64,000 bases of DNA from the IMG/VR virus record IMGVR_UViG_3300027850_000002, positions 62,001 through 126,000 of that record. One strand, 5' to 3'. Below, in pieces: positions 31,762 through 64,000 of the stretch. Position 1 is the stretch's first letter, and each line of letters begins with the position of its first letter. Below the pieces are notes generated by a model. It was not told where the DNA came from, ran no database searches, and saw only the letters and a program-made list of their open reading frames with translations. The position numbers were made by a program, and so were the translations under genes. This DNA comes from a virus.

Positions 31762-32130
31762 GTGTCCTTCGTCAGCAACGCGCACGGTCGAGGCGTGGTC
31801 GCCGCTCTCGTGCGGTTCGGTCTCAAGAACGCAGCCGAGGAGCTGCGGCTGAAAATCCCGAGCCGTACGTTTCACGGATTCGACGCGGCCCACAAAACAG
31901 AAGCGGACCGCGGCGCGAAGAAAGCAGCTGACGAGATCGAGGGCAACGCGAACAACCTCGCGGACATGTTCAAGCAGCTCGAAGAGGGTGTTTCACCCGC
32001 CGTTCAGCTTGCCTCGCGTGACCCGCTCGATCGACAAGTGTCGTGGGGCGCACCGTCGAACCTTGCGGCCGGCGATGCGGGGAACCGCGTTAGTGATATG
32101 GGACAACCAACCGGCTTTGGAGGCGTCTGA
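31762..32130 (+). CDS. Small tagged protein between the two polymerase genes (122 aa)
   Basis: GTG start 5 nt after TATAAT. The N-terminus has the recurrent module NAHGRGVVAALVRFGLK. The rest is charged and helical (AAHKTEADRGAKKAADEIEG, ADMFKQLEEGVSPAV) and ends in a Gly/Asn-rich tail (GDAGNRVSDMGQPTGFGG). Not similar to any polymerase part I know. It lies exactly in the break of beta-prime. Proposed to be a virion or polymerase-associated protein; function unknown. Confidence 0.75.
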   Translation: MSFVSNAHGRGVVAALVRFGLKNAAEELRLKIPSRTFHGFDAAHKTEADRGAKKAADEIEGNANNLADMFKQLEEGVSPAVQLASRDPLDRQVSWGAPSNLAAGDAGNRVSDMGQPTGFGGV

Positions 32131-32537
32131 TGCTCGATCGTTTTGTTAACCAGGGTCGCATTGACGCGATGGTGCGTTTCAAGGTCAGCATGTCGCTGGG
32201 TAAACCAGGTGGCGGGAGTCGCTTCAGCGCTCCGCCAATGGCAGCAGCACCGGCTGCGGCTGCCGCCAGTGCGGGCGGCGGCGGTTTCATGGACAAGGCC
32301 AAAGCGTTCGGCAGTGGCCAGCTCGGGGCCGCGAAGGACCTTCTGGGCAATATGCGCCAAGGCCTCGGCGGAGCAGCGTCCCCCGAGCTAGGTGCGGCAG
32401 CTCGCGGTGCTGCGCTCGGCAATCTCAAGACTCTCGCGCCGTCGCTCCTCGCAGGCGGCGGTCTCTACTTGATGCACAAGCACAAGCAGGAGCAGGCGCA
32501 GGCGCGGCAGCAGCAGATGATGCCGGGCAGTTTCTGA
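32130..32537 (+). CDS. Tagged Gly/Ala-rich hydrophobic protein (135 aa)
   Basis: ATG overlaps the previous stop (TGATG). Residues 3-18 carry the module DRFVNQGRIDAMVRFKV. It is followed by Ala/Gly-rich segments (APAAAAASAGGGGFMDKAKA, GQLGAAKDLLGNMRQGLGG, LKTLAPSLLAGGGLYLMHKH) able to form glycine-zipper membrane or channel helices, and a Gln-rich end. Small glycine-rich proteins with this module recur in the late region and may be internal virion proteins ejected with DNA. Confidence 0.75.
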   Translation: MLDRFVNQGRIDAMVRFKVSMSLGKPGGGSRFSAPPMAAAPAAAAASAGGGGFMDKAKAFGSGQLGAAKDLLGNMRQGLGGAASPELGAAARGAALGNLKTLAPSLLAGGGLYLMHKHKQEQAQARQQQMMPGSF

Positions 32538-32548
32538 AACGTTGAACC

Positions 32549-34330
32549 ATGCCGACGACCCTTGGCCAACATCTCGTCGATTCGATCCTTCCACAGAAGT
32601 GGAAGGGTGGCGGCGTTCTGACCAAGGGCGCGTTGAACACCATGCTTCTGGGTGTGGCCAAGGACGACGTGCACAAGTACCCCGACGTCGTGACACGGCT
32701 CAAAAGGCTGGGTGACGAGGTCGCTACGCTCGACGGAATTTCCGTCGGTCTCGACGACATTGCACCGCACGCAACCGACCGTGACGCCGCGTTGAAGCCG
32801 CACGCTGACGCGTTCCACCAGGCGACGAACAACCCCGACAAGATCAAGGCCCTCATCGGCGGGCAGAACGCGATGCTCAACCTCGCGCGCAATCACCCCG
32901 GCACGATGGGTGAGATGGTACGTGCTGGCGGACGCGGCAACGCCGCGCAGCTCATGCGTACGGTTGGAGCGCCGGTGTTTGCCGAAGATTCCAAAGGGAA
33001 AGTCATCCCGTGGTTCGTCAACAAGAGCTTCTCCGAAGGACTCAAGCCGGCAGACGCATGGGTGATGGGCGGGCAGGCGCGCGTCAATGCGGTGGTCTCG
33101 AACATTTCGGTCGTTGAACCAGGAGACCTTGCCAAAATTCTCGTCAACAACATGGGCGACCAGCTCGTGTCGTCCGTCGACTGCGGAACGCACAATGGTC
33201 TCGCGATGCTTCCGACCGATGCCCACATCATCGATCGGTACCTGGCAGGCACGAATCAACTGATCACGCCGCAGCTTGCGTCGCACCTCGCCAAAGAAGG
33301 CAAGGACGTCATCGTGCGTTCACCGATGACTTGTCAGGCCGCACACGGTGTCTGTCAACACTGCCAGGGCTTGTCGACGTCAGGACACGCCCACCCCATC
33401 GGGACGAACATCGGCGTACGCGCGGCACAGGCCCTCGCGGAACCTCTCACCCAGTTCGCGCTCAACGCCAAGCACGGCGGACGTGTGGTTGGTGTCGACG
33501 ACGAGAAGCGGCTCGAGGGCATCAAAGGCGTGCGAGCACTGCTCGAGATTCCATCGTCGTTCGCGCACAAGGCCGTGCTCTCGGATCGTGACGGGTCGGT
33601 GTCAAAGATCGACAAGGCACCACAAGGCGGTCACTTCGTCTTCGTCGGCGCCGGCAGTCACTACGTACCGCCCGCGCACAAGGTGACGGTCAACGTCGGC
33701 CAGTCAATGTACGCGGGCGACCTGCTCTCAGACGGCGTTCCCAAGCCAGACGAAATCGTTCAACACAAGGGACTCGGCGAAGGACGGCGTTACCTCGTCG
33801 ACGCGCTCTCGGACGTCTACAAACGTGCCGGCTCCGAGATCGACAAACGGCACCTGGAAATCTTGGCCAAGAGCGTGCTCAACCACGTTCAGATCACAGA
33901 CCCAGGTCCGCACGATGCCTTTCTCAAAGGTGACATCGTCAACTACAACCAGTTCCAGTCGGCGGTCGCTGCGTCGAAACAACGGCGTCCGACGGCAGAC
34001 GCGATCGGCGAAACGCTTGCCGAAGGCGTCCTACATCACACTGCGGGCACGTCCATGACACAGCCGATGGTCGATCAACTCGTTCGCCACGGAATCACAA
34101 CCGTCGCGACCGCGAATCCCGGTCCGCGCGCACTGCCTTTCATGCGGCCCGCGTCACGTACGCCGCTGCTCAACCCTGATTGGATGGCACGTCTCGCACA
34201 CCGTTACTTGAAAGAGTCACTGTTGACGGGCATCCACCGTGGTGATGTTTCGAACTTGCATGGAGCGTCACCCGTACCTGCGTACGTTGCAGGCACTGAG
34301 TTTGGCTTAGGCGAAGAGGGCCATTACTGA
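32549..34330 (+). CDS. RNA polymerase beta-prime subunit, C-terminal half
   Basis: 593 residues. The bridge-helix region is MVRAGGRGNAAQLMRTVG and AWVMGGQARVNAVVSNISVV (E. coli MADSGARGSAAQ and STHGARKGLADTAL). The second zinc site is intact: C212 in SVDCGTH and C262, C269, C272 in TCQAAHGVCQHCQG. The trigger helix is IGVRAAQALAEPLTQFALNA. The C-terminal part (VNVGQSMYAGDLLSDGVP and LEILAKSVLNHVQI) follows the beta-prime order to the end. It must assemble with the product of 27340-31755 to form a catalytic centre. The large lineage insertion in the trigger loop is absent. Confidence 0.92.
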   Translation: MPTTLGQHLVDSILPQKWKGGGVLTKGALNTMLLGVAKDDVHKYPDVVTRLKRLGDEVATLDGISVGLDDIAPHATDRDAALKPHADAFHQATNNPDKIKALIGGQNAMLNLARNHPGTMGEMVRAGGRGNAAQLMRTVGAPVFAEDSKGKVIPWFVNKSFSEGLKPADAWVMGGQARVNAVVSNISVVEPGDLAKILVNNMGDQLVSSVDCGTHNGLAMLPTDAHIIDRYLAGTNQLITPQLASHLAKEGKDVIVRSPMTCQAAHGVCQHCQGLSTSGHAHPIGTNIGVRAAQALAEPLTQFALNAKHGGRVVGVDDEKRLEGIKGVRALLEIPSSFAHKAVLSDRDGSVSKIDKAPQGGHFVFVGAGSHYVPPAHKVTVNVGQSMYAGDLLSDGVPKPDEIVQHKGLGEGRRYLVDALSDVYKRAGSEIDKRHLEILAKSVLNHVQITDPGPHDAFLKGDIVNYNQFQSAVAASKQRRPTADAIGETLAEGVLHHTAGTSMTQPMVDQLVRHGITTVATANPGPRALPFMRPASRTPLLNPDWMARLAHRYLKESLLTGIHRGDVSNLHGASPVPAYVAGTEFGLGEEGHY

Positions 34331-34776
34331 TGCTTGAGCGTGCACATACGAAGGGCATCGACGATGCCCTCACGTGTTTCCAGATCAAAGAGTCACGCTT
34401 TATTGATTCGGTCAAACGTATGGCGATCGGTCAACCTGGACGTGTCTTCGTCGAAGGGCCCAAGGCGTTCGCTCCCGGCGGTCTACTCGGACACAAGAAC
34501 GTCTGGTGGCCCGATGTCAAAGGCGCGCCTCTGAACTGGCTCGGTCGTGCGGGTACAGTCGCCGCACCCCTCATGGCATTGTCTGCTATGCGCTCAAATC
34601 CACACGAAGGCACTTTGTCAAACGCGCTTGGTGCGCTTGGTGGTATCGCAGGAAGCGCGTACGGTTTCCCTGCGCTCGGTATGATCGGTGGTCCTATGCT
34701 CGGAGCTGCGGGTGCGCATCTCGGGCGTGGTGTTGGCCACTTGCTCAGCAGTGAACCAAAGAATCCAAACCAATGA
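34330..34776 (+). CDS. Tagged Gly-rich hydrophobic protein (148 aa)
   Basis: ATG overlaps the polymerase stop (TGATG), so translation is coupled. The N-terminal module is ERAHTKGIDDALTCFQIK. After a basic region and a Gly/Pro turn come two hydrophobic glycine-zipper helices (AGTVAAPLMALSAMRS and ALGALGGIAGSAYGFPALGM with IGGPMLGAAGAHLG). It resembles small membrane-penetrating or core proteins, but no family is recognised. Confidence 0.75.
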   Translation: MLERAHTKGIDDALTCFQIKESRFIDSVKRMAIGQPGRVFVEGPKAFAPGGLLGHKNVWWPDVKGAPLNWLGRAGTVAAPLMALSAMRSNPHEGTLSNALGALGGIAGSAYGFPALGMIGGPMLGAAGAHLGRGVGHLLSSEPKNPNQ

Positions 34777-34985
34777 TCAACAACGCGTACAACAAAGGCC
34801 GAGCTGACGCACTCACACGCTTCAAGCTCAGCAATATACAAACGGGTGCAGCTGGCGCAAATCCGATGCTCGGCGGTCAAGCCGCGACAGGTTCGCGACC
34901 ACAGCCAGGCACTTCTTTGGCGCCGCCAACTTCTTCTGCTCCTCCAATGGCGGCAGCCGCTCCGAAGGCTCACGCCCTCGGTTAG
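34773..34985 (+). CDS. Small tagged protein (70 aa)
   Basis: ATG overlaps the previous TGA (ATGA). It shows the clearest form of the module, MINNAYNKGRADALTRFKLS, followed by a disordered Gly/Ala/Pro/Thr tail (QAATGSRPQPGTSLAPPTSS). It has essentially nothing but the module and a linker, which argues that the module itself is the functional part. Confidence 0.75.
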   Translation: MINNAYNKGRADALTRFKLSNIQTGAAGANPMLGGQAATGSRPQPGTSLAPPTSSAPPMAAAAPKAHALG

Positions 34986-34993
34986 TGCAACTG

Positions 34994-35022
34994 TTGGATA
35001 TTTGAGAGTCCCGCCCTATCAT
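34994..35022 (+). promoter_or_regulatory. Late promoter: TTGGAT-17-TATCAT
   Basis: TTGGAT at 34994-34999, a 17-nt spacer and TATCAT at 35017-35022 in the context CCCTATCATTTCG. It precedes the 35058 gene with a 35-nt leader. Spacing and -10 match the promoters at 44754-44782 and 60602-60630. Confidence 0.65.
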
Positions 35023-35057
35023 TTCGTCAATCTCTGTACGACTTCCCCGAGGCAAAA

Positions 35058-36362
35058 ATGTTCAAGCATGCGTACGTCCGAGGCATCCAGACCGCGTTGG
35101 TCAACAACGGCGCAGCCGTGTTCCCCGACGAGACCACCGCGGCCAAGGTCGCGGACTACATCGCAGAGCGTGTCGAGATCGACCCGCTGACGGCGGTGCC
35201 ACGTGAGCTGACCCACAAGGTCGCCACTGACATCGTCGCTGCTTCGGATTGGATCAAGAAGCAGCCGAACTTCAAGGCGGCATCGTTCAACAAGCTCGCG
35301 ACGTGGGAAGACGTTGCGCAGGTCGCGGACCGCAACGCGACCCAGTTGATGACGAAGGCCGCCGAGGGTTCCACCATCGAAGGTGGCGACAAGGGAAACA
35401 CCGAGGGCCAGTCGCCTGTTGGTGAGACCAAGATGGACGCGACCCAGCGTCCTCCGGGCTACGCCGAGAACAGCCTCGGCAAGACCGACGTCGACACCCG
35501 TCCGGGCGCAGTTGGCAAGGAAGAGCCGCAGCCGGTTCAGCCCAAGGAGACTGACCACAAGGACAACTCGGTCGTGGAGCACTCGCGCACCGCGTCGCTC
35601 GCGGACATGTTCCGCAAGTCGGCTGAGGGTTCGACGATCCTCGGCGGAGACAAGGGCAACAAGGAGCCGACGACTGGCGAAGGCAAGATGGACGCGACGC
35701 AGCGTCCTCCGGGCTATGCCGTCCTTCCCCACCAGGGCGCCCTCGGTGCCATGATGGAGCAGGTCACGGGCCCCGCAGTGATCGGTCGCGAGACCCCGCA
35801 GCCGCACATGCCGAAGGAGTCGCCGAGCGGTTCGAACTCGCTCACCGAGCACTCGGCCAAGGCCGCTGCTGAAGACCCGTACATCACGCTCTTCAAGAAG
35901 GTCGCGTCCGAGATCCACGAGTACCTTCCGGGCGGTCTTCACGAGGACAGCAAGATCGCCGCGGTTCGCGCCTGCATGGGCATGACGACCGAAGAGAAGG
36001 CGTACTACCTCCGTGGCTTGCAGAAGGAAGCGGCCGACGCGTCGGTTGGTTCGGAAACGCGCACGGGTATGGGTCGCTCGCGTCCCGGTGCCTACGACGG
36101 TCGCTCTGCCAACCAGAGCACCAAGCAGACCGATGACCTTCCGCCGTTCATGAAGAAGGACGACGACGAGAAGAAGGACGAGAAGAAGGACGACGACAAG
36201 GGTGAGAGCAAGGGCGGAATGCCGGCATTCATCCAAGACAAGATCGACGCCCGCAACGCCGACAAGAAGGACGGCAACAAGGACGAGAAGAAGGATGACG
36301 ACAAGAAGGAAGCTTCGTTGCGCGACTTCTTCCGTCGCATCGACGCGGCCCAGCGCGCGTGA
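35058..36362 (+). CDS. Repeat-containing charged virion/scaffold-like protein (434 aa)
   Basis: N-terminal module form FKHAYVRGIQTALVNNGAA. Residues ~102-136 and ~189-221 are two copies of a Gly/Thr/Pro unit (AEGSTIEGGDKGN ... KMDATQRPPGYA). A helical part follows (YITLFKKVASEIHEYLPGG, GMTTEEKAYYLRGLQKEAAD). The last 80 residues are a Lys/Asp-rich tract (KKDDDEKKDEKKDDDKGESK-like) ending KKEASLRDFFRRIDAAQRA. The highly charged, low-complexity build would suit a scaffold or an internal head protein. It has its own late promoter. Confidence 0.75.
   Translation: MFKHAYVRGIQTALVNNGAAVFPDETTAAKVADYIAERVEIDPLTAVPRELTHKVATDIVAASDWIKKQPNFKAASFNKLATWEDVAQVADRNATQLMTKAAEGSTIEGGDKGNTEGQSPVGETKMDATQRPPGYAENSLGKTDVDTRPGAVGKEEPQPVQPKETDHKDNSVVEHSRTASLADMFRKSAEGSTILGGDKGNKEPTTGEGKMDATQRPPGYAVLPHQGALGAMMEQVTGPAVIGRETPQPHMPKESPSGSNSLTEHSAKAAAEDPYITLFKKVASEIHEYLPGGLHEDSKIAAVRACMGMTTEEKAYYLRGLQKEAADASVGSETRTGMGRSRPGAYDGRSANQSTKQTDDLPPFMKKDDDEKKDEKKDDDKGESKGGMPAFIQDKIDARNADKKDGNKDEKKDDDKKEASLRDFFRRIDAAQRA
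35361..35720 (+). repeat. Two imperfect copies of a ~100-bp coding repeat
   Basis: 35361-35465 and 35622-35720 are diverged direct repeats, in frame, sharing GAGGGTTC, GGCGACAAGGG-like and AAGATGGACGCGAC, then CAGCGTCCTCCGGGCTA. They encode AEGSTI-x-GGDKGN and KMDATQRPPGYA. Confidence 0.75.
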
Positions 36363-42446: not shown

Positions 42447-43012
42447 CGTCCTTTGCTCGCGCTCTCGAAACGTCGGTCCTTCTCGCGGAGAAGATCGCGT
42501 CGTCGCGCTCGGAAAACCCGACGTTACGAGAGAAGCTCGCGCTCGCTGACTTCGCTGCGTTCGGCCTCTTCAAGCGGGCAGCGCTCGACCCAGCGGCCTT
42601 GTCTTCGCTGCAGCGTGGACTCGGTTGGGGTGTTGGGCTCGGAATCCCCGCGCTCGCTGCGGGACACATGTTCTTGAACGATGCGCGCGACCACAGCGGC
42701 GAAGTCCTGCGTGATGCACGCAACCAAGCGCTCATCACGGCAGCGGGCGTTGGCGGCATGCAAGCGCTCGGGGAGGCTTTCAAACGGAAGCCACAACCGT
42801 CGCAACACAACGTCAACGTTTCAATGCCGCAACAGCCAGAGCAGCCACAGCTCGACGATCAGCAAAGGCTCGCCGCCGCCATCATGGTCGATGATGTGCT
42901 CGAGGCAGCGTGCAGTCAGCTTAGCGATCCTGTCGCAAAGCACGCAGCGCTCGTGGAACTCATCAAACACCGCAGTGAAGCGACGAACCTTCTACGGAGT
43001 CTTTTGTCGTGA
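42443..43012 (+). CDS. Hypothetical protein (189 aa)
   Basis: ATG overlaps the preceding TGA (ATGA). Contains LADFAAFGLFKRAALDPAAL, a Gly-rich hydrophobic stretch (LQRGLGWGVGLGIPALAAGH), a Gln/Pro linker (MPQQPEQPQLDDQQRLAAA) and a helical end. It precedes and overlaps the maturation protease. Probably a virion or scaffold-associated protein by position; unassigned. Confidence 0.7.
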   Translation: MTSFARALETSVLLAEKIASSRSENPTLREKLALADFAAFGLFKRAALDPAALSSLQRGLGWGVGLGIPALAAGHMFLNDARDHSGEVLRDARNQALITAAGVGGMQALGEAFKRKPQPSQHNVNVSMPQQPEQPQLDDQQRLAAAIMVDDVLEAACSQLSDPVAKHAALVELIKHRSEATNLLRSLLS

Positions 43013-44751
43013 AGAAGATCATCGAGCTGGATGACTACTTTCCGACGGGTGAACCGACCGTTCAAATCATCCTGCCGTGGAACAACGGACGTAGCGTCGA
43101 CACGAGTCGTGTTACCAAGTACGCGTCCGAAGCGCTCGATTACATCAAGCACGTCGCACCTGAGCCTGGCAAAACCGCGCTCCTGCTCAACGCGATGGGC
43201 GCCGAGGAGACCTACGGACCGAACCGCAACGGCGATGGGTTCCCTGAGTTTCCCGTCCCAGCTCGCGGCAAGATTGCATCGGCAGATCGTCGTTGGTTCG
43301 TACCACCGGGCGAAGAGCTGACGCACCATTACGCGTCGTTCGAAAAGAATCCTGCCCACGCGTTCATGCACCACGCAAACCGAGATCCGTCGAAGGCCTC
43401 TGGCGTGGTGAAGAAGGCGTTCTGGAATCCGCGCATGCATCGCGTGGAGCTGCTTACCCTTGTCGACAACGACAAGGACCCCGAGTGGATCAAGCGTGCG
43501 AGCGACGGTGAGTTCGTGCCCGTCAGCATGGGCTGTCGAATCAAGCGTGATGTCTGCGCACGATGCGGCAACGAAGCGCCCACGCGCGCGGACTACTGCG
43601 ACCACGTGAAGTTCGCGATGAATCAGGTCGACTCGAACGGGTTCAAGGACTATGTCCACAACCCATCGCCCGACTTTTTCGACATCTCGCGCGTGTTCCG
43701 CCCTGCGGATCGTACGGGCTACACACTCAAGAAAGTCGCAGAGACCTACGAGGTCCGACTCTCGGCAGACCTCGGCGAGATCGCCGATCGTCTCGCGCTC
43801 AAGAGCGGTGCTTCGCAAAAGCTATCCGACATCGACAAAGTGATTCGCGCTGAACCGCTCGCGTCCAGTACGCTCACACCAGACGAGAAATCGTTCATCG
43901 TAAAATTCCGGGACCACGCGGGTCCCAAGCTCGCGGCTGCACCGCGCATCAACACGGCAGGTCTGCATGTGTGGTCTCTCGGAGAGACGCTCACCGCTGC
44001 CGCAAAACACGGTGTCGTATTCAACGACCGTGAATTCATCGGACTCGCAACAAGCAAGCTCGCAGGACATCCAGTCACATTGCTTGAAGCACAGACGGAC
44101 AAGATCGCAGCCGCCGGTCGTTGGTCGCTCGCGCTGTTTGCTGAACGCCCTGAGCTACTCGCCGAAGTGATTGATAGCGGCGTGCTCGAGTCTTCAAAGA
44201 CCGCGAAGGAGTTAGATGTATTCTTCGCGAGTGTGAGCGAGAAGCGTGCGTACGCCGGAGAGATGCTCTATCGACGTCTCGTACCTGAAGATATCGGACT
44301 TGGCCCTGACGCTGCGCCCACCACGGACGTGCTGCACACGCAATACGGTGACACCACACGCGGTGCAGCGATCGATGCACAAGACGCAGTCACGCGAGCA
44401 CACATGGGCAAGGTGGTTGGCGGTGCAGGTCTGCTCCTCGGCGGATACAAAGCGCTCACTGCATTTCCATGGATGCGTAAATTCAAGGTGCCGCTTGCGA
44501 TCGGAGCAGGGGCTCTCGGCGCATCCACGTTGGGCAAACGTCCTGGTGGAACAATGCGTACCGATGAAGGCTACGACATTCCAGACATCACAGAACTGAC
44601 GTCGAAGACTGCATCGCAGGCGGCGTTTGTTCACCTTATCGAATGCGCACAAACAATGACGCGCAGATTCGATTTCTCGAGTATCAAGGTTGCGAACCTG
44701 GCGTCGTTAGATCAGGTGGCCATGGCGCTCGGTTCCATCGTCTTGACTTGA
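43009..44751 (+). CDS. Capsid maturation (prohead) protease with long C-terminal extension
   Basis: 580 residues, GTG start overlapping the previous stop. The first ~250 residues match large-phage prohead proteases: GPNRNGDGFPE, HAFMHHANRDPSKASG (candidate catalytic His 121/122), MHRVELLTLVDNDK and FVPVSMGCRIKRDVCARCGN, with catalytic Ser 173 and a zinc-like C183/C186/C197 followed by YCDHV. The protease domain should cleave scaffold and core proteins. The remaining ~330 residues are unlike a protease and include a Gly-rich hydrophobic helix (GKVVGGAGLLLGGYKALTAF). This may be a fused scaffold or core part, or the region removed by self-cleavage. Confidence 0.82.
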   Translation: MKKIIELDDYFPTGEPTVQIILPWNNGRSVDTSRVTKYASEALDYIKHVAPEPGKTALLLNAMGAEETYGPNRNGDGFPEFPVPARGKIASADRRWFVPPGEELTHHYASFEKNPAHAFMHHANRDPSKASGVVKKAFWNPRMHRVELLTLVDNDKDPEWIKRASDGEFVPVSMGCRIKRDVCARCGNEAPTRADYCDHVKFAMNQVDSNGFKDYVHNPSPDFFDISRVFRPADRTGYTLKKVAETYEVRLSADLGEIADRLALKSGASQKLSDIDKVIRAEPLASSTLTPDEKSFIVKFRDHAGPKLAAAPRINTAGLHVWSLGETLTAAAKHGVVFNDREFIGLATSKLAGHPVTLLEAQTDKIAAAGRWSLALFAERPELLAEVIDSGVLESSKTAKELDVFFASVSEKRAYAGEMLYRRLVPEDIGLGPDAAPTTDVLHTQYGDTTRGAAIDAQDAVTRAHMGKVVGGAGLLLGGYKALTAFPWMRKFKVPLAIGAGALGASTLGKRPGGTMRTDEGYDIPDITELTSKTASQAAFVHLIECAQTMTRRFDFSSIKVANLASLDQVAMALGSIVLT

Positions 44752-44809: not shown

Positions 44810-45388
44810 ATGAAGCTCTCAAACGCACTCGGGATGATCAAAGGCGGCGAAAAGACCGCGAGCGCACCTGCGCCCACGGGAACTGCCTCTTCGTCGAGCG
44901 ACGCCGGCGAGCGCCTCAAGCAGGCACTCAAAGAAGCGACCGCTCCGGCACTACAGGCCAAGACGGCGGGTCAAGCCTCGCCCATCGAGGACCTGACCAA
45001 GATCGCCAATGACCTGAGCAAGGCCGAACATGACGCGCTGACCAAGGAGGCGCAGATGTATGGCGCCGCGGTCTGCGATGGTTTCATGGCGCGCGCAGCT
45101 CAGTACCAGGAAGCGGCCACGAAGGTCGCGGCCACGATGCCCACGAAGACCGCCGCGGTTGCAGGGGGCACATCGGACTTCGAGAAGTTCGCGTTCGAGA
45201 ACCCCGACCTGGTGAAGGAAGCCGCGGAACTCGGCTACGCCACCACGAAGAACCAGCTCGAGAAGCTCGGCGAAGCAGCCTACGCCAAGGGCTGGAACGA
45301 CACGGTCGAGACAATCCACAAGACGGCGAGCGATGCATTCATCGCCGGCTTCAAGGACACCCTCGCTCTGTTCGAGGGCGCACGCTGA
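44810..45388 (+). CDS. Helical protein with two internal module copies (192 aa)
   Basis: Driven by a strong late promoter. Mostly helical and Ala/Lys-rich: the first 50 residues are low complexity, then LTKIANDLSKAEHDALTKEA. Near the C-terminus two module-like units occur in tandem, AAYAKGWNDTVETIHKTA and DAFIAGFKDTLALFEGA. Position just after the protease and before capsid genes, and the helical charged build, would fit a scaffold or core protein. No family recognised. Confidence 0.72.
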   Translation: MKLSNALGMIKGGEKTASAPAPTGTASSSSDAGERLKQALKEATAPALQAKTAGQASPIEDLTKIANDLSKAEHDALTKEAQMYGAAVCDGFMARAAQYQEAATKVAATMPTKTAAVAGGTSDFEKFAFENPDLVKEAAELGYATTKNQLEKLGEAAYAKGWNDTVETIHKTASDAFIAGFKDTLALFEGAR

Positions 45389-46889: not shown

Positions 46890-47828
46890 ATGTCGGCAGC
46901 GTACAAAACTCAGACCCAGCAGGTCTCGGCTCAGTTCATCAACTCCAACTTCGTCCGTAAGGTCGAGGACGGTCGCACCAAGGAGGCGGAGGCCGAGGGC
47001 ACCGCCTTCATCCGCCAGAAGCTCCGTCAGGAATCCTTCGCGCGCGAGATCATCGAGCCAGTCATGCTGGCGGACGATGAGATCGACCGCGACGAGAACA
47101 CGGATCAGCCCAAGAAGATCGTCGAGAAGGAGCCCGACTCCGTCGCCACGTTCGTGCCGTTCAACGGTACGGCGCAGCGCACGTGGTTCCGTGGCAAGCG
47201 CTTCTCGGTCTTCTTCGGCAAGACCGAGTCGCAGCGGTTCACCAAGAACAAGTTCGAGCTGATGACGTATCAGAACGACATCCGCAAGATCCTCTCCGAC
47301 AACTCGGTGAAGGACATGTCGGACCAGGAAGACCAGAAGTTCCTGGACACCATCAACGCGATCATCGCGTTGAACCTCGCGACGCAGCGCACCCTCGCGG
47401 GCGCGTTCAACTCGAGCGCGTTCAAGCAAGGCTTCCAGGCGCTCGTCAATCGGAAGCAGCCAATCGGCAAGCTCCTGATGTCGAAGTCGACGTACTACGA
47501 GGCCCTCGACCTGCCGGCGACCGCCGTCGGTAACGACGTGGCGTCGCGGCACTACGACGTGGGCATCGAGGCCGAGGAGAAGCTGTGGGGCATCCCCGTG
47601 GTTTCGACCATCAAGCGTGAGATCGTCGACGACGTCGCCGGTGCCACCCGCCGCTCGGTCTACGTGTTCGCGCCGCAGAACTACCTCGGCGTGTTCTTCC
47701 TGCTGCAGGACGCAACCCTGTACATCAAGCAGGAAGCCGACATCATCGAGTTCTGGAGCTACGCAGCCCCGGGCATCGGGATCGGCAACACGCTCGCGTC
47801 GCAGCGTATCGACCTGCCGTTCGCCTGA
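46890..47828 (+). CDS. Major capsid protein, HK97 fold
   Basis: 312 residues with AAGGAG before the ATG. Features of HK97-type capsids: charged N-terminal arm (VRKVEDGRTKEAEAEG), E-loop-like region around FVPFNGTAQRTWFRGKRFSV, long spine helix (SDQEDQKFLDTINAIIALNL) and C-terminal domain (LWGIPVVSTIKREIVDDVAG, VFFLLQDATLYIKQEADIIE). It builds the icosahedral shell. No long N-terminal delta domain is present, so scaffolding is presumably supplied by separate proteins upstream. A strong hairpin follows the gene. Confidence 0.85.
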   Translation: MSAAYKTQTQQVSAQFINSNFVRKVEDGRTKEAEAEGTAFIRQKLRQESFAREIIEPVMLADDEIDRDENTDQPKKIVEKEPDSVATFVPFNGTAQRTWFRGKRFSVFFGKTESQRFTKNKFELMTYQNDIRKILSDNSVKDMSDQEDQKFLDTINAIIALNLATQRTLAGAFNSSAFKQGFQALVNRKQPIGKLLMSKSTYYEALDLPATAVGNDVASRHYDVGIEAEEKLWGIPVVSTIKREIVDDVAGATRRSVYVFAPQNYLGVFFLLQDATLYIKQEADIIEFWSYAAPGIGIGNTLASQRIDLPFA

Positions 47829-48420: not shown

Positions 48421-48899
48421 TGCCGGTCATTGGAACACCGACGACGCCGACGGTGGTCTCAAAGGACCAAGTCCGCATGTTCATGCGTGACTATGCGAAC
48501 AACAACATCCTCCTCGACGATGTACAGTTCACCGATAAAGAACTGAACCTGGCGCTAGCCATGGCGACGAGTGCGTTCAATACCGTCACTCCCCAGACGA
48601 ACTTCACACCGTCGACATTTCCTCCGCAGCTGATGTACCTCCTGCTCATTGGTACGGTTCGATTCCTGCTCATGAGCGAGTCGTTCATGCAGGCAAGAAA
48701 CCAGGCGACCGTGCAGGACGGTGACATCTCACCAATCGGCATTTCAGATAAGGCCCAGCTGTATTCGTCGCTGGCGCAACAACTCAAGGCCGAGTGGGAT
48801 GAACTAACACGCGGTGTGAAGACGCAGAACAACATGGAAGCGGCCTACGCTTCATTGGGTTCTGGGTACCGAAACACGTCGCGGTTCAATCACTCGTGA
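48420..48899 (+). CDS. Putative head-tail connector / head completion protein (159 aa)
   Basis: GAGAGG 14 nt upstream. The helical sequence (KDQVRMFMRDYANNNILLDD, FTDKELNLALAMATSAFNTV) is followed by PQLMYLLLIGTVRFLLMSES and GISDKAQLYSSLAQQLKAEW. This all-helical build and the place two genes after the capsid resemble gp6/gp15-type connector adaptors. Its TGA overlaps the next GTG. Confidence 0.55.
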   Translation: MPVIGTPTTPTVVSKDQVRMFMRDYANNNILLDDVQFTDKELNLALAMATSAFNTVTPQTNFTPSTFPPQLMYLLLIGTVRFLLMSESFMQARNQATVQDGDISPIGISDKAQLYSSLAQQLKAEWDELTRGVKTQNNMEAAYASLGSGYRNTSRFNHS

Positions 48900-49165
48900 C
48901 CGTTCGCGCGTCATACGTGTGCGGACGGAATGCAGCGCTCGCACGGTTCAAGCTCGCAGGTACGATGGGTGCGAGCATCGGCGTCCAGCCAAAAGGTCCC
49001 GAGGTCAGCCACGGCACGGATCGCACGCAGTACCCGCCACAATCCGGCGGCACCAGTGCAGCACGTTCGAACATGCCTGATTGGTTGTGGGACCACTTCA
49101 CATCCTACGACAAGGTCGCGCCAGGGCGCGCGGATGGTACGTACGGACAAGAAGTCATCGGGTAA
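48896..49165 (+). CDS. Small tagged protein (89 aa)
   Basis: GTG overlaps the preceding TGA. The N-terminal module is RASYVCGRNAALARFKLAG, followed by a disordered Gly/Pro/Ser region (GPEVSHGTDRTQYPPQSGGT) and a short C-terminal motif (MPDWLWDHFTSYDKVAPG). Same build as the 34773 product. Confidence 0.72.
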   Translation: MTVRASYVCGRNAALARFKLAGTMGASIGVQPKGPEVSHGTDRTQYPPQSGGTSAARSNMPDWLWDHFTSYDKVAPGRADGTYGQEVIG

Positions 49166-49186: not shown

Positions 49187-49363
49187 ATGTCGAACCACCT
49201 GAAGACCGCACACGAGTACGGCGTCCAGAAGGCGCTCGAGAACGTCGGATACAAGAGCGCGGAGGAAGTCCGCCGCGATGCCGAGGCGCTCGGCATTCTC
49301 GAGCAGCCGACGAAGACGGCATCGACCTCGCTCGACGACCTGTTCCGCGCGCTCCAGAAGTAA
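49187..49363 (+). CDS. Small tagged protein (58 aa)
   Basis: Leaderless start after TATAAT. The module is KTAHEYGVQKALENVGYKS, followed by a helical linker (AEEVRRDAEALGILEQP) and a short end (KTASTSLDDLFRALQK). Like the 34773 and 48896 products it is little more than the module plus a tail. Function unknown. Confidence 0.72.
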   Translation: MSNHLKTAHEYGVQKALENVGYKSAEEVRRDAEALGILEQPTKTASTSLDDLFRALQK

Positions 49364-49371
49364 ACACACCC

Positions 49372-49767
49372 ATGTCGCTGTTGCGCCAAAGGTCGGCTGA
49401 GGGCGGGCGCGCAGCGCTCGCGGCCTTTGGCGTGGTTAAGACTGCGACGGGGTTCAAGCAACCGGGGTTCAAGTCCGTCGGAATCCTACTTCCGAAGGCT
49501 GCGGATCTTCCGCCGATCCCACCGCCAAGCGTGCCTTCGCCGCTCGGTATTGGTAGGATCGAGAGCAACTACGACTTCGTACCCAAGGTCGCCTTCAACG
49601 TCGGAATGGGGGCTTCGACTTCCACTGACGGAGCGGGCGCTCAGCGGGGAGTTCCAGCGGATACGGGACGTCGTCAACGCAGCGTCATCGACCGGGCGTT
49701 CCAACGCAACGAAGACGATTACGCAACAAGCAGCATGCCGTTGCCAGGGGACGTTGTCGCGCCATGA
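49372..49767 (+). CDS. Tagged hypothetical protein (131 aa)
   Basis: ATG 8 nt after the previous stop. Module-like start RQRSAEGGRAALAAFGVVK. The rest is Pro/Gly-rich and basic (KAADLPPIPPPSVPSPLGIG, GAQRGVPADTGRRQRSVIDR) and looks largely disordered. Its stop overlaps the next ATG (ATGA). Unassigned. Confidence 0.68.
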   Translation: MSLLRQRSAEGGRAALAAFGVVKTATGFKQPGFKSVGILLPKAADLPPIPPPSVPSPLGIGRIESNYDFVPKVAFNVGMGASTSTDGAGAQRGVPADTGRRQRSVIDRAFQRNEDDYATSSMPLPGDVVAP

Positions 49768-50561
49768 CGCTCGAACTCATCTACGCAAATGGGCAGCTCG
49801 CGGCACTCGAACGCTACAAGCTCGGATTCCCCGCGCACCCAACGGTCGCGAACAGCGCCGTGCTGACGACGAAGAAAACTTCACCGACACTGCCCGCTGC
49901 AGCACAGCAGGGGATGGCGCCACCATCAACGCCCATGGGCCTCTCTCAGATCTTCGATGCGCACGAACAAGGTGAAACGCGCTCGGAACCTCGGCGCAAG
50001 CTGTCGGCCGATAATCTATGCACGTCGTGCCGAAGGATGAAGCACTACGGCAAATGCAGTCGTCCGCGTGCGATTCCCGAGAAGGCCGCTGATTTAAACA
50101 TCGGGATGCAGGGCTACAGCCCTGAACAGGGCAACAACCCATCCACGAGCCCTAACTACCGCTCAGCGGTCAGCTCGATCAGCTCGCTCACGCGCGCGTT
50201 AGAGGGTCGCCCCGCCGATGAGCAGGCAGCATCTGGGTTCGCGGACCTGTACCGCGGGGGCGGGATTTCGAACATGGCGGATGAGCCGGGCCAGATGTCG
50301 GGCAGCCTCGCCAAAGTCGCGAACAAGCTCAGCGCCTTCATGTTGCCCGACGCAGGGCTCCATTCGATGCACGAGCAGCGGGGACCGACCGTGAACCCGT
50401 ACGAAGAGCAGCGAACACGGATGGGAGCGCCTGTCGGCTTCGGCGACGAGGGGCTGCAACGCATCAATCGGGCCTTCAATCAGATCGACCACGCGGCCGA
50501 CACCACGAACATCGGGGGCGGCGCCGGCGATCCAGAGCCAGGGCCGGCGGTCCTTGGCTGA
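49764..50561 (+). CDS. Tagged protein with Cys knuckle (265 aa)
   Basis: ATG overlaps the previous TGA. The module is ELIYANGQLAALERYKLG. Around residues 85-100 NLCTSCRRMKHYGKCSRPR may bind zinc. The rest is Gly/Pro/Ser-rich and probably extended (MQGYSPEQGNNPSTSPNYRS, FADLYRGGGISNMADEPGQ) with a helical SLAKVANKLSAFML. It precedes connector genes. A virion role is likely but the exact role is unknown. Confidence 0.68.
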   Translation: MTLELIYANGQLAALERYKLGFPAHPTVANSAVLTTKKTSPTLPAAAQQGMAPPSTPMGLSQIFDAHEQGETRSEPRRKLSADNLCTSCRRMKHYGKCSRPRAIPEKAADLNIGMQGYSPEQGNNPSTSPNYRSAVSSISSLTRALEGRPADEQAASGFADLYRGGGISNMADEPGQMSGSLAKVANKLSAFMLPDAGLHSMHEQRGPTVNPYEEQRTRMGAPVGFGDEGLQRINRAFNQIDHAADTTNIGGGAGDPEPGPAVLG

Positions 50562-54573: not shown

Positions 54574-55026
54574 GTGTCGGACTCCTTTTTCGACAAGTTC
54601 ATCGCTGACCTCGTGAAAGGTGCCAACACCAACTCGAGGGAGAATGGCGGGCCCGGCGTGAACATCATCGTGGCGCGCGAAAACCACGGATGTGAAGAGA
54701 AACTCGCGAGCGAGAAGCTTGGAACGATCGCAGACGCCTATGCCAACGGTGCAACGGCAGCTGCTGCGGCGTTCGGAGTCAAGGAAGCGTTTCTCCCGGC
54801 GCTCCTTCCGCTCGCTGGTTCTCTGCTTGGAGGCACTGCGCTCCGTGCCGGTGCGGGCGCCGTCGCCAAAGGGGCGATGGGTCGCGGTGCAGCCGGTCTT
54901 GCTTCCAAGGTGGTGCCGAAGATGACGGGCGGCATCGGTGGCGCAGCCACGGACATGGCAGGTTCGATGGTAGGCGGTGCCATCGGCAACAAGCTCGCGC
55001 CGCAGCCGCAGCAGCAGCCGCAATAG
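54574..55026 (+). CDS. Gly-rich protein with an internal module copy (150 aa)
   Basis: GTG start 2 nt after the sheath stop. Residues ~51-67 contain the module DAYANGATAAAAAFGVK. Directly after it come LPALLPLAGSLLGGTALRAG and GAGAVAKGAMGRGAAGLASK, then GGAATDMAGSMVGGAIGNKL, a long glycine-zipper region, and a Pro/Gln end. It unites the two recurring features of this genome in one protein. Function unknown; a virion membrane-active protein is suspected. Confidence 0.7.
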   Translation: MSDSFFDKFIADLVKGANTNSRENGGPGVNIIVARENHGCEEKLASEKLGTIADAYANGATAAAAAFGVKEAFLPALLPLAGSLLGGTALRAGAGAVAKGAMGRGAAGLASKVVPKMTGGIGGAATDMAGSMVGGAIGNKLAPQPQQQPQ

Positions 55027-60630: not shown

Positions 60631-60635
60631 TCCGC

Positions 60636-60899
60636 GTGCCCAAGATTCGTGAATACACGTGCGATTGTGGTGCCCGTTTCGAACACATGCACATGACCGA
60701 AGATGAGGTCGCGCTGTGTCCGACGTGCGCGCAATCAGTCGGTCCAAAGGACGAAATGTTGGGCGGGCATTCGTGTACAACAATCGTTCCGATGTCCCGG
60801 ACCTCGTTGAAAAACAAGGCGGGCTACGTCCACTCGCACGGCGACAAGCCGGCTGAAAAGGGCTCGGTTAGCGTGCCGAGCAACAAGGGGAGCTTCTGA
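60636..60899 (+). CDS. FmdB-type zinc-ribbon protein (87 aa)
   Basis: GTG 60636 chosen because it lies 5 nt after TATCAT and gives the family-typical start MPKIREYTCDCGARFEHMHM (GTG read as Met). The longer frame upstream runs into the preceding gene. The second knuckle is ALCPTCAQSVGP. This CxCG ... CPxC pattern is that of FmdB-like regulatory proteins, common in phages, of unknown target. The C-terminal half is Gly/Lys/Ser-rich. It opens the lysis region. Confidence 0.78.
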   Translation: MPKIREYTCDCGARFEHMHMTEDEVALCPTCAQSVGPKDEMLGGHSCTTIVPMSRTSLKNKAGYVHSHGDKPAEKGSVSVPSNKGSF

Positions 60900-61405
60900 T
60901 GCAGGACCAGATCGAAACCGTCAGCATGTTGATCGTCAAGGGTGTTGTACTGCCGCTCGTAGGACTCTTTGTCGCGTGGGCATCCATGATGCTGCCGGCG
61001 TGGATCAAGGCAAAGGTGAAGAACGAGAGTGTCGCGGGCGTCCTCGAGCGCCTCTCGACGCTTGCGTTCTCCGTCGTAACGGAGATCCAGCAGACGATCG
61101 TCTCAGGTCTCGGCGACCAAGCGACCACAGAAGAGCTGCAAAAGGCGCGCGACCAAGCGATCGCAACCCTAAAATCACACCTCGGTGCGAAGGGTATGAA
61201 GGAACTGATGACAGTGTTGGGTCTTGCGGACGCCGCCGTCAACAAGCTGCTCGTCACATTCATCGAATCGGCGGTGCACAACCTTCCAAAGACGTTGATG
61301 GCAGGAACGTTGATCGAGACAAAGTCGACCACGACACCAGAAACGGCGAGCGAACCAGCTACCACCACTGTCACTACCACCGCAGCAACTTCGACCCCGA
61401 CCTGA
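60899..61405 (+). CDS. Holin, LL-H-like
   Basis: 168 residues; ATG overlaps the previous TGA (TGATG). One N-terminal membrane helix (MLIVKGVVLPLVGLFVAWAS) is followed by AWIKAKVKNESVAGVLERLS, a long amphipathic region and LKSHLGAKGMKELMTVLGLA. This is the build of the phage LL-H holin family (Phage_holin_6). The C-terminus is a Thr/Glu-rich disordered tail. It should time lysis by opening the inner membrane for the hydrolases at 61821 and 62564. Confidence 0.7.
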   Translation: MQDQIETVSMLIVKGVVLPLVGLFVAWASMMLPAWIKAKVKNESVAGVLERLSTLAFSVVTEIQQTIVSGLGDQATTEELQKARDQAIATLKSHLGAKGMKELMTVLGLADAAVNKLLVTFIESAVHNLPKTLMAGTLIETKSTTTPETASEPATTTVTTTAATSTPT

Positions 61406-61416
61406 AAGGCCTTCCT

Positions 61417-61824
61417 ATGCGCTTCATTCTCGTCCTCGTTCTCGTCATCGGTCTGGCCAGCACGACCGCGTGTCCTCCAGGTCCAGGTCCTGTCGGTCCG
61501 GTGATCAACGCCGTTGTCGATTGTCTCGGTGCGAACCGCCCGCAAATCGACACCCTTATCAACGAGTTCAAGGGACCGATTCTCGGTGGTGGTTCGGTCT
61601 CGTGGCCGGACGTCAAGCTTCGGGCAACACAGGCCGGCAAGGACATCGGCGGCTGTTTCATCATGGAACTGACGCAGTGGTTCCTCAGTGGAACGCGCGC
61701 AGCGCCGGATGCAAAGGCGGCGCACGACGCTGCAGAGGAATTCCGTAGGACCGTCGGAGGAAACGCGACGTACTCCACGATCTGCGTGCGGGAAGACGGT
61801 ACCAAGTCGGCGTGTAAGCTGTGA
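61417..61824 (+). CDS. Lipoprotein, possible spanin-like lysis protein (135 aa)
   Basis: The N-terminus MRFILVLVLVIGLASTTAC is a lipoprotein signal peptide with lipobox-like TTAC, Cys 19 being lipidated. A Pro/Gly-rich linker (PPGPGPVGPVINAVVDC) follows, then a small domain with further Cys residues (AGKDIGGCFIMELTQWFLSG, TYSTICVREDGTKSACKL). Placed between holin and endolysin it may act as an outer-membrane spanin, although it is longer than usual and has disulfide-type cysteines. Its stop overlaps the next GTG. Confidence 0.6.
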   Translation: MRFILVLVLVIGLASTTACPPGPGPVGPVINAVVDCLGANRPQIDTLINEFKGPILGGGSVSWPDVKLRATQAGKDIGGCFIMELTQWFLSGTRAAPDAKAAHDAAEEFRRTVGGNATYSTICVREDGTKSACKL

Positions 61825-62567
61825 CGCTGAAGATCGGCAAAACGGGCGCAGTACCGTCGCGACATGATCCAAAGACGGTCACGTACAAGGCGATCCACAA
61901 AGCGCTCGCAATTGCCGATCCGAGACGTACACCGCCATTTCACGTCGACACTCGGCCACGCAACGCACGCTGGGACATCAACGGCAACGACCGCTACGGC
62001 TGCTGCACGTTCGCTGGCATCGTCCGTATCATGCAGAACAACGCGGCCCGCAAGGGCCGTACGCTTGACATCACGGACGAGGACGTCATCAAGGCGTACC
62101 TGGACAGCACAGGTGGCGTCGACGCAGGGCAGATGCCGATCAACGCGCTGAACTACATGCGCAGCATCGGCATCAAGGGCCACAAGGTGTTGGCGTATGC
62201 ACGGGTCGGTGACCGAGACGTGTACGAACGACAAAGCGCGCTCGCGACGTTCGGTTCGCTGTACGTCGCCGCAGGGCTGCCTGCCAAACTCAATGATGAT
62301 CGGGACCTACGGTGGGAGTTGACGCCGCGTGAGAAACGCACGGCTAGCGACGAGCCGCGCTCGATGGGCGGACACGCCTACCCGATTTTTGGTTTTCAAC
62401 GCGGTGAAGAGTTCTCCGTACCGTGGGACCAGGAGGTCATCGAAGAGGCCAACTGGACGGACTATTACCGCGAGGAGACCTGGGTGTTCGCTGACAACCA
62501 GGAAACGGACCAACTTCTGCTCGGTGTCATGTTCGCGCAACTCGCAGCGATCAAGGAGACCGCATGA
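61821..62567 (+). CDS. Papain-like cysteine peptidase-type protein (248 aa)
   Basis: GTG overlaps the previous TGA. The motif NGNDRYGCCTFAGIVRIMQN resembles the active-site Cys helix of the phage/actinobacterial 'GNDxYGDC' papain-fold family. SMGGHAYPIFGF would carry the His, and WVFADNQETDQLL a later polar residue. No signal peptide. Next to the endolysin it may cut peptidoglycan peptides or proteins during lysis, or be injected. Overlaps the endolysin start by 4 nt. Confidence 0.6.
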   Translation: MTLKIGKTGAVPSRHDPKTVTYKAIHKALAIADPRRTPPFHVDTRPRNARWDINGNDRYGCCTFAGIVRIMQNNAARKGRTLDITDEDVIKAYLDSTGGVDAGQMPINALNYMRSIGIKGHKVLAYARVGDRDVYERQSALATFGSLYVAAGLPAKLNDDRDLRWELTPREKRTASDEPRSMGGHAYPIFGFQRGEEFSVPWDQEVIEEANWTDYYREETWVFADNQETDQLLLGVMFAQLAAIKETA

Positions 62568-63562
62568 CCCTCAAGCTAGGCAGTCAAGGACCCGAGGTCG
62601 AACAGCTGCAGCTCAAGTTGAAGGCCGCCGGGTACGACCCTGGCAACGTCGATGGAGACTACGGCAAGCGTACTGTGGACGCCGTGCTCGCGTTCCAAAC
62701 AGACCGTCCAGATCTCGACGATGACGGTGCTGCAGGTCCAATGACCCTCGGCGCTCTGGATGCTGCGATTGCAAAGACGAAGCCCGCGTCTGCAACGCCC
62801 GTGGCGCCGACATCCACCGTGCCTTGCGACGCGACAACGTGGGCCGCTTTCATGTCACTTGTCGACAAGGTCACAAAGCTTCCCGTCAAGTACGGACCTG
62901 GGCGAGGTCTTTGGTCCAAAGACAAATTCGTCATCACGTACAATCCCGGATCGCTCGTGAAAGACGTCAGGTGGACCGGCTGGCCGAACGTTCTCGGAAA
63001 GCCGTACCCAAGCTTTCACTGTACGTCGTGGTGCAACTTCTTCATGAGCTGGTTGTGTCGCCGCAACCAGGACTACACGCACGCGGGCAACATCCCCTCG
63101 CTGTTCGACCTTCTTTCGAAAGGTCCAGAGGTCCATCAGAACCCGGGCGCTGGTCCGTACCGAGGCTTTGGGGACGTGTGCTATCCGATTGTCCCCGATG
63201 GGTCAGCTGTGAAGCGCAGCGGCGTGCCCAAGGTCATGGATGTACGTGAGCTGTACGCACGTCGGGCGGACTTGCCGACCTTCGTCGTGTTCGGCCAATC
63301 GACGAAGAAAACCGGCGGCTGGAATTGGTGGCATCACACAGGGCTGTACGTCGCGCGCGACGGCAAGCTGTTCCGGATCGCCGCCGATGGCTTCAAGGGG
63401 TCGAACGGCTACTCTGCGAGCCCGATGAAGTACGTGGAAATCACGCCCCAGAACCTCAGTGCGTTCGACGGCTGTGTGTACCGCTGCTACGGCGTCCGCA
63501 CGACGGACGGTACCTACGGCGACAAGAGCAGGCCGTACGCGACCGTGGACTTCGAAGCGTAA
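62564..63562 (+). CDS. Endolysin: peptidoglycan-binding domain plus NlpC/CHAP-like peptidase
   Basis: 332 residues. The N-terminal PG_binding_1 domain (~1-65) shows LGSQGPEVEQLQLKLKAAGY, GDYGKRTVDAVLAFQ and DGAAGPMTLGALDAA. After a Pro/Ala/Thr linker comes a cysteine-peptidase-like domain, with Cys in YPSFHCTSWCNFFMSWLCRR and His in GGWNWWHHTGLYVARDGKLF, spaced as in CHAP/NlpC-P60 enzymes. It should degrade the cell wall after holin action. No signal peptide, consistent with holin dependence. Confidence 0.82.
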   Translation: MTLKLGSQGPEVEQLQLKLKAAGYDPGNVDGDYGKRTVDAVLAFQTDRPDLDDDGAAGPMTLGALDAAIAKTKPASATPVAPTSTVPCDATTWAAFMSLVDKVTKLPVKYGPGRGLWSKDKFVITYNPGSLVKDVRWTGWPNVLGKPYPSFHCTSWCNFFMSWLCRRNQDYTHAGNIPSLFDLLSKGPEVHQNPGAGPYRGFGDVCYPIVPDGSAVKRSGVPKVMDVRELYARRADLPTFVVFGQSTKKTGGWNWWHHTGLYVARDGKLFRIAADGFKGSNGYSASPMKYVEITPQNLSAFDGCVYRCYGVRTTDGTYGDKSRPYATVDFEA

Positions 63563-63578
63563 TCCCGCGTCGGTCCAC

Positions 63579-63584
63579 TATAAT
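63579..63584 (+). promoter_or_regulatory. -10 box (TATAAT) of a predicted leaderless promoter
   Basis: TATAAT in GTCCACTATAATTAGGGC ends exactly 6 nt before ATG 63591. It lies in the 28-nt gap after the endolysin gene. No -35 seen. Confidence 0.62.
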
Positions 63585-63590
63585 TAGGGC

Positions 63591-63956
63591 ATGGCGCAGA
63601 CCCTGACCGTCGCTGGCGCGGCCTCCTGTCCTTTCGTGGACGGTGGCGCCGTTGCTCCCATTCCCCTTGCGACTGCTCTCGGCTTCACGTCACGAGCAGA
63701 CTTCCAGCGGAGCTATCTCGGCGCCATTGTCGATGATCCTGTCAACTTCGGGACGCTCGCAGTGCCGGGTGCCAAGGGCGTCATCGTCATGTGCACGGCA
63801 GGCAGTTGCACGATCAAGTTCAACGGCGGTCTCGATGCGTGGCCCCTCTCGCCCGGCGGCTACTTCATTTGGATCAACACCGCGCAGCCATTCCCGACGT
63901 CGGCTCTGATCTCGACGACAGGTGCTGCAGGCGTGTTCTTCCTCGCGGTAGGATGA
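63591..63956 (+). CDS. Hypothetical beta-rich protein (121 aa)
   Basis: Leaderless start after TATAAT. Sequence is Gly/Ala/Val-rich with Cys residues at ASCPFVDGG, VMCTAGSCTIKFNGG, then WPLSPGGYFIWINTAQPF and AGVFFLAVG. It is a small beta-sandwich-like protein, possibly a decoration, fibre-tip or baseplate component. No family recognised. Confidence 0.68.
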   Translation: MAQTLTVAGAASCPFVDGGAVAPIPLATALGFTSRADFQRSYLGAIVDDPVNFGTLAVPGAKGVIVMCTAGSCTIKFNGGLDAWPLSPGGYFIWINTAQPFPTSALISTTGAAGVFFLAVG

Positions 63957-63959
63957 CCA

Positions 63960-64000
63960 ATGCTACAAAGGGCTTTCGAACAGGGCTGTAGCAACGCGTG
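63960..64000 (+). CDS. Start of another tagged protein (3' end outside window)
   Basis: ATG 63960, 3 nt after the preceding stop, opens MLQRAFEQGCSNA before the window ends. This matches the first half of the recurrent module (A-F-x2-G-x3-A), so a further family member begins here. Confidence 0.6.
   Translation, partial: MLQRAFEQGCSNA

Follow-up and report, generated by a model that had tools for sequence, protein, structure and literature searches.

Why would a virus begin many small and otherwise dissimilar proteins with the same short module? The question is raised by a 64,000-nucleotide stretch of viral DNA (the window; positions 62001-126000 of the 175,415-base record IMGVR_UViG_3300027850_000002), in which numerous products start with the pattern A-[YFH]-x2-G-x3-A-L-x2-F, a helix with small residues (A, G, A) at every fourth position, here called the tag. 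A preliminary description of the window had taken this module as a shared address tag, for example for packaging inside the head, had supposed it to be the functional part of its carriers, and knew of no described function for it. We likewise found no description of the tag sequence in the open-licence literature (most subscription journals lie outside that search), and none of the open-licence papers with 'capsid targeting sequence' concerns this lineage, judging by their titles and the starts of their abstracts. Our analyses suggest that the tag is quite probably a cleavable N-terminal head-targeting propeptide, which would work as the capsid targeting sequence (CTS) does in phage T4, but with a tag and a cut site of another sequence. 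Head packaging thus stands as the best-supported reading of the address tag. What had been overlooked is the K-x-A or K-x-S that normally closes the tag and recurs in proteins of the head region. This points to a propeptide that is cleaved off and not to a lasting module, and makes it unlikely that the module is the functional part of the mature protein.

The recurring N-terminal motif is real. We built a profile of 17 columns from 12 N-termini: the nine clear cases of the preliminary description, all of which translate as it quoted them (the one at 63960 runs past the window end and continues in the full record as MLQRAFEQGCSNACARFGVKIAA), the weaker case at 49372, and two genes outside the window at record positions 126409 and 138514, which were chosen by eye from the gene list before the profile was made and are therefore not blind tests. 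In leave-one-out scoring, 11 of the 12 reached 11.3-31.1 and the N-terminus at 49372 reached 5.5; shuffled N-termini gave 0.15 matches per genome at a score of at least 10. Scores of the full profile were two-peaked, with the twelve members at 24-38 and the next-best gene (record position 16504, taken as chance) at 9.5. Within the first 40 residues, strict, core and loose regular expressions matched 6, 10 and 15 N-termini versus shuffle means of 0.22, 0.88 and 5.4 (maxima of 3, 6 and 14 in 1000 shuffles). Chance similarity is ruled out by the leave-one-out scores and the shuffles, and the profile check that had been suggested for the module, run in this genome and in related records, found it far above shuffled sequence. 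The less clear cases fared differently. Relatives of the 49372 protein (G005_109, G006_054 and G007_081) score 16.8, 11.8 and 21.7 with the window profile, and the internal copy noted in the protein at 54574 scores 21.0; the candidates at 36359 and 41194 fall away at -3.2 and -1.8, and at 44810, where two tandem copies had been reported, the highest score of 7.2 is not significant (P = 0.14 versus shuffles).

Using the profile built from window sequences only, we found 52 tagged N-termini at a score of at least 11 in ten related records, versus a summed shuffle mean of 0.75 (13 in G002, 10 in G007, 9 each in G006 and G012, 6 in G005, 4 in G001 and 1 in G008); G003, G009 and G010 had none at that score. 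Seven of these records were reached via the RNA polymerase and G001-G003 via a DNA pattern of the tag. A replication set of six further lineage records, out of eight found with another tag pattern, held 16 tagged N-termini at a score of at least 10 versus 0.4 by shuffles, a number that is biased because the records were selected through the tag; the sequence behind the tag is unbiased there, because the selecting pattern stops before the site discussed below. The position of the tag is extreme: profile column 1 falls at residues 1-10 in 55 of 58 non-redundant tags (first 45 residues searched), and 55 of the 58 genes lie on the capsid-gene strand, compared with 51% of all genes. The gene at record position 16504 and its look-alike G007_183, both judged chance, were omitted from the site, tag-position, strand and pair-identity counts. 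The bodies behind the tag differ, as had been claimed. At an E-value of 0.01, the tagged proteins of the window have no BLAST relative in G001 or G002, except the 434-aa protein (in both) and the 148-aa protein (in G002), and these two records carry other tagged proteins; the tag is thus common to proteins that are otherwise unlike. It is shared by divergent late proteins, where 'late' is judged from strand and neighbours. Searches of Pfam and PHROGs with 41 chosen tagged proteins returned one DUF5661 match and one weak PHROG match only, and a 30-residue tagged N-terminus had no match up to an E-value of 10 in 50,697 phage records.

Tags usually end in K-x-A or K-x-S at varying spacing, as in FK-L-S, FGLK-N-A, FGVV-K-T-A, EKF-A and DGTE-K-T-A. 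Counted relative to the F of the module (-1 to +13), K-x-[AS] was present in 67 of 84 tagged N-termini (G007_028 and G006_142 were omitted as chance matches), compared with 15% of untagged and 20% of shuffled sequences, and in the replication set it occurred at -1 to +14 in 15 of 16 against a background of 19%. The fair test lies outside the profile columns, because K and A partly fall within them: of the 37 non-redundant tags that have no site in register, K-x-[AS] stands at +2 to +9 in 23, where the background is 9.4% (binomial tail 4e-15). The sites taken (n = 93), picked to have that form, comprise 76 K-x-A, 10 K-x-S and 7 K-x-G.

The same site recurs at fixed places in three proteins of the head region, whose genes, like those of the tag carriers in the window, lie on the plus strand. 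The first, at 43009-44751, would be the prohead (head maturation) protease, an assignment based on PHROG and tblastn similarity: phrog_18299, annotated 'head maturation protease', was matched by 10 of 10 members (best 1.6e-10), and two phages among the tblastn matches listed are annotated with a capsid maturation protease or prohead protease, most being without such annotation. Sequence searches of Pfam, NCBIfam and PDB gave nothing usable. Its K37-x-A39 (43117-43125), a candidate self-cleavage site, is invariant in 13 of 13 aligned sequences, including the distant isolates Salmonella phage Arash and Vibrio phage D69, and is present in five of six further ones; the sixth, G025_117, aligned only from query residue 183. 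Also invariant is S173, within V-S-M-G-C. At V-S-M-G-C the protease genes of G012 (115857-118694) and G005 (71660-74527) carry an in-frame insert of ~364 aa, which starts C-F-L-A-G, ends V-H-N before C, and resembles an intein placed in what is presumed to be the active site.

The second is the major capsid protein (46890-47828), where K31-E-A33 (46980-46988) closes the N-arm. Residues 31-33 read K-x-A in 13 of 13 aligned sequences and in all five further ones found (K-T-A or K-Q-A in two; no capsid protein was called in the sixth further record, G025). In both the protease and the capsid protein the site is thus kept in Arash and D69. The third, at 44810-45388, is scaffold- or core-like, a role suggested by its position between the protease and capsid genes. 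Its K-x-A pairs at residues 51-53, 64-66 and 79-81 (44960-44968, 44999-45007 and 45044-45052) are invariant in 11 of 11 relatives and make up 6 of the 15 invariant columns; at an E-value of 0.001, BLAST found no match for this protein in Arash or D69. We do not claim homology of the tag with two C-terminal helices of this protein, attractive as it is. In 11 of 15 relatives a pattern Y-x2-G...K-x-[AS] (first position Y/F/W/R/I) is found from residue 115 onwards, but it has no control, and in most relatives the profile scores lie within shuffles.

On a larger scale, the 35 proteins of the head block contain 124 K-x-A versus 64 expected and 9 KTA[ASG] versus 0.8 expected, compared with 38 versus 48 and 1 versus 0.7 in 37 tail and other structural proteins. 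K-x-A has the top z-score among gapped residue pairs seen at least six times in the head block, and likewise in the Arash head block (50 versus 23.8). Head-region genes are frequent among the twelve proteins with the highest K-x-A excess in each record, and the scaffold-like protein is present in 7 of the 7 records listed. The highest excess of the genome by z-score (8 versus 1.2) belongs to a 329-aa protein away from the head block (window 4087-5076, record 66087-67076); proteins of similar length head the list in G007, G005 and G002.

The site also marks the boundary of what appears to have been copied. In G027, five adjacent genes begin MNPMLKIAYDYGC, with K-x-A at codons 22-24 in all five, and their DNA identity rises from 0.27 upstream to 0.88 in codons 1-22, then drops to 0.44 in codons 23-25 and 0.30 beyond (one of the five has a possible start four codons earlier, and the DNA was compared gap-free from the common ATG). 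With the site as the point of alignment, protein identity in 339 within-genome pairs of tagged proteins (again without G007_028 and G006_142) is 0.16-0.26 before and 0.05-0.12 after it, where chance is 0.06; K and A/S/G themselves are set by how the site was chosen. As DNA and protein identity both collapse at K-x-A, the copied unit would extend from near the start codon up to where the cut is presumed.

These results have to be weighed against the possibility that the module stays on the protein as a permanent docking helix, by which small accessory proteins would be anchored at the inner face of the capsid, the portal or the virion RNA polymerase, with K-x-A incidental or structural. The pattern A-x3-G-x3-A, aromatic, L, F suits stable helix packing, and five carriers in the window (31762, 32130, 34330, 34773 and 35058) flank the second RNA polymerase gene. 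Further, 14 of 58 non-redundant tags are without K-x-[AS] at -1 to +9. This last count is also the first of several observations that weigh against cleavage and packaging. In most relatives of the 434-aa protein, K-x-[AS] comes only 12-13 residues on, within a likely helix. Neither virion presence nor cleavage has been observed for any tagged protein of the lineage, and the structure models had unusably low confidence, with predicted local distance difference test (pLDDT) values of 48 for the protease and 42 for the capsid protein. Genes outside the head and tail sets also show a mild excess of K-T-A-[ASG] (6 versus 2.4), and the enrichment in the head block is not fully independent of the tag-site result because tagged genes are counted in that block. 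G008-G010 keep the K-x-A sites with few tags: even an expanded profile found four tags scoring at least 18 in G008 and only the relative of the 434-aa protein in G009 and G010, so the tag is rare in this branch. With the window profile, no N-terminus exceeded 8.5 in Arash (whole record) or D69 (50 kb searched), and as Arash shows no N-terminal tag, its virion proteome, the only one published (PMC10585845), cannot test the tag. An Arash head-block protein (L037, record 149012-149638) has an internal MYHLGRTDQLKKQAG, which resembles tag plus K-x-A; this was seen by eye and is unscored. A permanent helix nevertheless leaves three things unaccounted for, namely the K-x-A behind most tags at variable spacing, its fixed places in the protease, capsid protein and scaffold-like protein, and a duplicated cassette that ends at it. 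Because the site at the end of the tag recurs in these three head proteins, we favor a cleaved propeptide and regard the permanent helix as unlikely.

Common descent offers another explanation, in which the carriers are a fast-diverging paralogous family with a conserved N-terminus that has no targeting role. The adjacent tagged genes of G027 are clearly duplicated, at least in the tag. However, body identity is near chance at most right behind K-x-A even where the DNA of the tag is 88% identical. The tag is also found inside the 54574 protein and 38-44 residues from the start, by the gene calls, in four relatives of the 31762 protein, and so seems to move as a unit. We consider such a relic highly improbable. 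More improbable still is a signal for another compartment (membrane export by a signal peptide, or import into a phage-built host compartment): the terminal small residue recalls processing sites in general and Gly-rich uncharged stretches occur in some bodies (5 of 58 tagged bodies versus 3.1% of untagged proteins, P = 0.04), but the tag has no hydrophobic core, Lys three positions before the cut disfavours signal peptidase I, the K-x-A site is common to the capsid protein and the protease, both head proteins, and hydrophobic segments are no commoner in tagged than in untagged proteins (22% versus 25%). The same 5 of 58 lends weak support to glycine zippers as a general trait of tagged bodies, and we rejected them as such.

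For the cleavable propeptide, we propose a sequence of events. The short amphipathic helix of the tag would dock the precursor on the growing prohead, probably at the core or scaffold or at the inner face of the shell. Upon prohead closure, as the conserved sites suggest, the protease (43009-44751) would activate itself by cutting at K37-x-A39. It would then shorten the capsid protein at K-E-A by its N-arm of 33 residues, cleave several K-x-A sites of the scaffold-like protein, and free the cargo from its tag by cutting after K-x-A/S. The released cargo would remain with the DNA beside the virion RNA polymerase and be delivered into the host. A broader proposal, for which we see the case as evenly balanced, is that the tag constitutes a mobile cargo-loading code: a cassette of ~22-24 codons, comprising helix and protease site, would have been copied before unrelated genes across this large, uncultivated lineage. 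Any late protein could thereby enter the head as cargo, and the maturation protease would release it for injection beside the virion RNA polymerase. Of the two elements, the K-x-A protease system would then be older, as it also occurs in Arash and D69, and the tag a later addition on top of it.

Within the window, the carriers around the second RNA polymerase gene include proteins of 122 aa (31762-32130; tag to FGLK-N-A, 31762-31833), 135 aa (32130-32537; tag to F-K-V-S, 32130-32189), 148 aa (34330-34776; tag to K-E-S, 34330-34395) and 70 aa (34773-34985; tag to F-K-L-S, 34773-34832), the last being barely more than a tag and a Pro/Gly-rich tail. The 434-aa protein that follows (35058-36362) has its helix at 35058-35111 and no K-x-A directly behind it, the nearest being at +13; it is the sole tagged protein with BLAST relatives in all ten first-round related records. 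Further on are proteins of 89 aa (48896-49165; tag to F-K-L-A, 48896-48958), 58 aa (49187-49363; tag to K-S-A, 49187-49261), 131 aa (49372-49767; tag to K-T-A, 49372-49446; the helix that is weak by leave-one-out) and 265 aa (49764-50561; tag to Y-K-L-G, 49764-49826, thus K-x-G without K-x-A/S). The internal copy in the 54574-55026 protein (54733-54783) reads DAYANGATAAAAAFGVK followed by EA, and the carrier cut by the window end (63960-64000; 149 aa in the full record) has F-G-V-K-I-A. In L012 (14363-14815) the N-terminus reads MPFRSESQRRFMYARHPEMAKEWQEHTPEGAKLPEK ahead of the tag, and two N-terminal modules seem to be joined.

The surrounding genes place the virus in the Arash lineage. Homologous genes for portal, RNA polymerase (1471 aa), RNA polymerase (593 aa), protease, capsid protein, sheath and tube are collinear, by BLAST, with those of Arash and D69. 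The nearest isolates are Arash and Vibrio phages D69, D148 and D181, with identities of 34-35% in the RNA polymerase and 38-41% in the capsid protein; IMG/VR relatives of the RNA polymerase amount to 27 loci at 48-100% identity. Genes in the record and its relatives were called with a simple custom caller. According to excerpts of the Arash study, this phage is a myovirus whose RNA polymerase is the most-detected protein of purified particles (3516 spectra), on a virion list of 116 proteins of which, in its authors' view, some enzymes may be carry-over (PMC10585845). In the window, phrog_25354 (function unknown) matches two proteins, namely the first RNA polymerase protein in its C-terminal quarter (27340-31755; profile 172-540) and the second RNA polymerase protein (32549-34330; profile 860-1105). 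As the profile is divided between the two, one polymerase subunit seems to have been split and its front part fused to the other polymerase protein. Relatives of the second protein in G008, G009 and G010 have 975-1103 aa, compared with 593 aa in the window. The first polymerase gene carries in-frame inserts of ~130-350 codons at three different places in the relatives G012, G006, G003 and G002, which are possibly inteins in part.

Look-alikes of the tag occur elsewhere. Three pattern scans of IMG/VR were made for the tag in unrelated phages, the last of which gave 76 stretches; 17 underlying records were tested and the remaining stretches were known relatives or were judged by eye. Eight of the 17 have the capsid protein and protease of the lineage, and in the other nine (9.9-51 kb) neither was found. 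Five records without them (L165, L167, L203, L216 and L223) have tag-type N-termini with K-x-[AS] behind, and their membership of the lineage is unsettled. L187, L188, L193 and L212 show a different look-alike set (MIKEAYQEGYYQALDE and similar), with K-x-[AS] absent or only near residues 29-33. Together with L198 they represent another phage group, in which searches found neither the capsid protein nor the protease of the lineage, and which has up to three genes per contig starting MIKEAYQ[EA]GY..AL[DN]E without a nearby K-x-A. Outside the window, seven small minus-strand proteins (record 716-11489 and 158929-164130) have a G-L-V-H-[IV]-like string near the N-terminus, by a loose pattern without control.

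If the tag is a cleavable propeptide, it provides a sequence rule to spot head cargo in a lineage whose late genes mostly have no known function. It would then also extend T4-style tag-and-cut loading to another pair of tag and cut motifs, and give a prediction of where a hitherto unstudied protease cuts. Some of this is open to direct test, because K-x-A sites also occur in the cultivated Arash, from which virion spectra have already been taken. The loading of proteins into phage heads could also profit from a tag that is short and removable.

Among known systems, Arash and D69 are like the lineage in keeping K-x-A in the protease and capsid protein, and unlike it in the N-terminal tag, which was found neither in Arash nor in the searched 50 kb of D69. 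Phages of the SPN3US/phiKZ type resemble it as virion RNA polymerase phages with many internal proteins and N-terminal propeptides. In the available portions of PMC5694885 and PMC10052503, these propeptides are cut after A-X-E by a gp245-type protease and are thought to target proteins to the prohead, and six of the eight N-terminal propeptides of SPN3US exceed 100 residues; in contrast to such mostly long propeptides with A-X-E cleavage, the lineage has one shared short tag. For phage P1, the N-terminal 30 residues of DarB suffice for loading a reporter into the head, and the Dar N-termini have no consensus by BLAST, as given in the accessible part of PMC9024508, whereas the lineage tag is a common motif with a candidate cut site on many proteins. 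The closest parallel is the T4 CTS, described in extracts of PMC9026906, PMC3012670 and PMC5694885 as an N-terminal peptide of IPI-IPIII and Alt adjoining a site for the prohead protease gp21, which also cuts the scaffold and capsid protein; for IPIII, the first 10 residues alone are required. As with that system, the lineage tag is a short N-terminal peptide on proteins with divergent bodies, beside a candidate protease site. It differs in its motif (taken without a sequence comparison against T4), in being known from sequence alone, on up to 13 carriers per genome, and in its likely site, K-x-A instead of the T4 L/I-x-E, which was not searched for as such here. Because the cleavage sequence differs, we do not class the tag as a T4 CTS; by analogy, we propose that it could be the CTS equivalent of this lineage, with K-x-A as the cut site.

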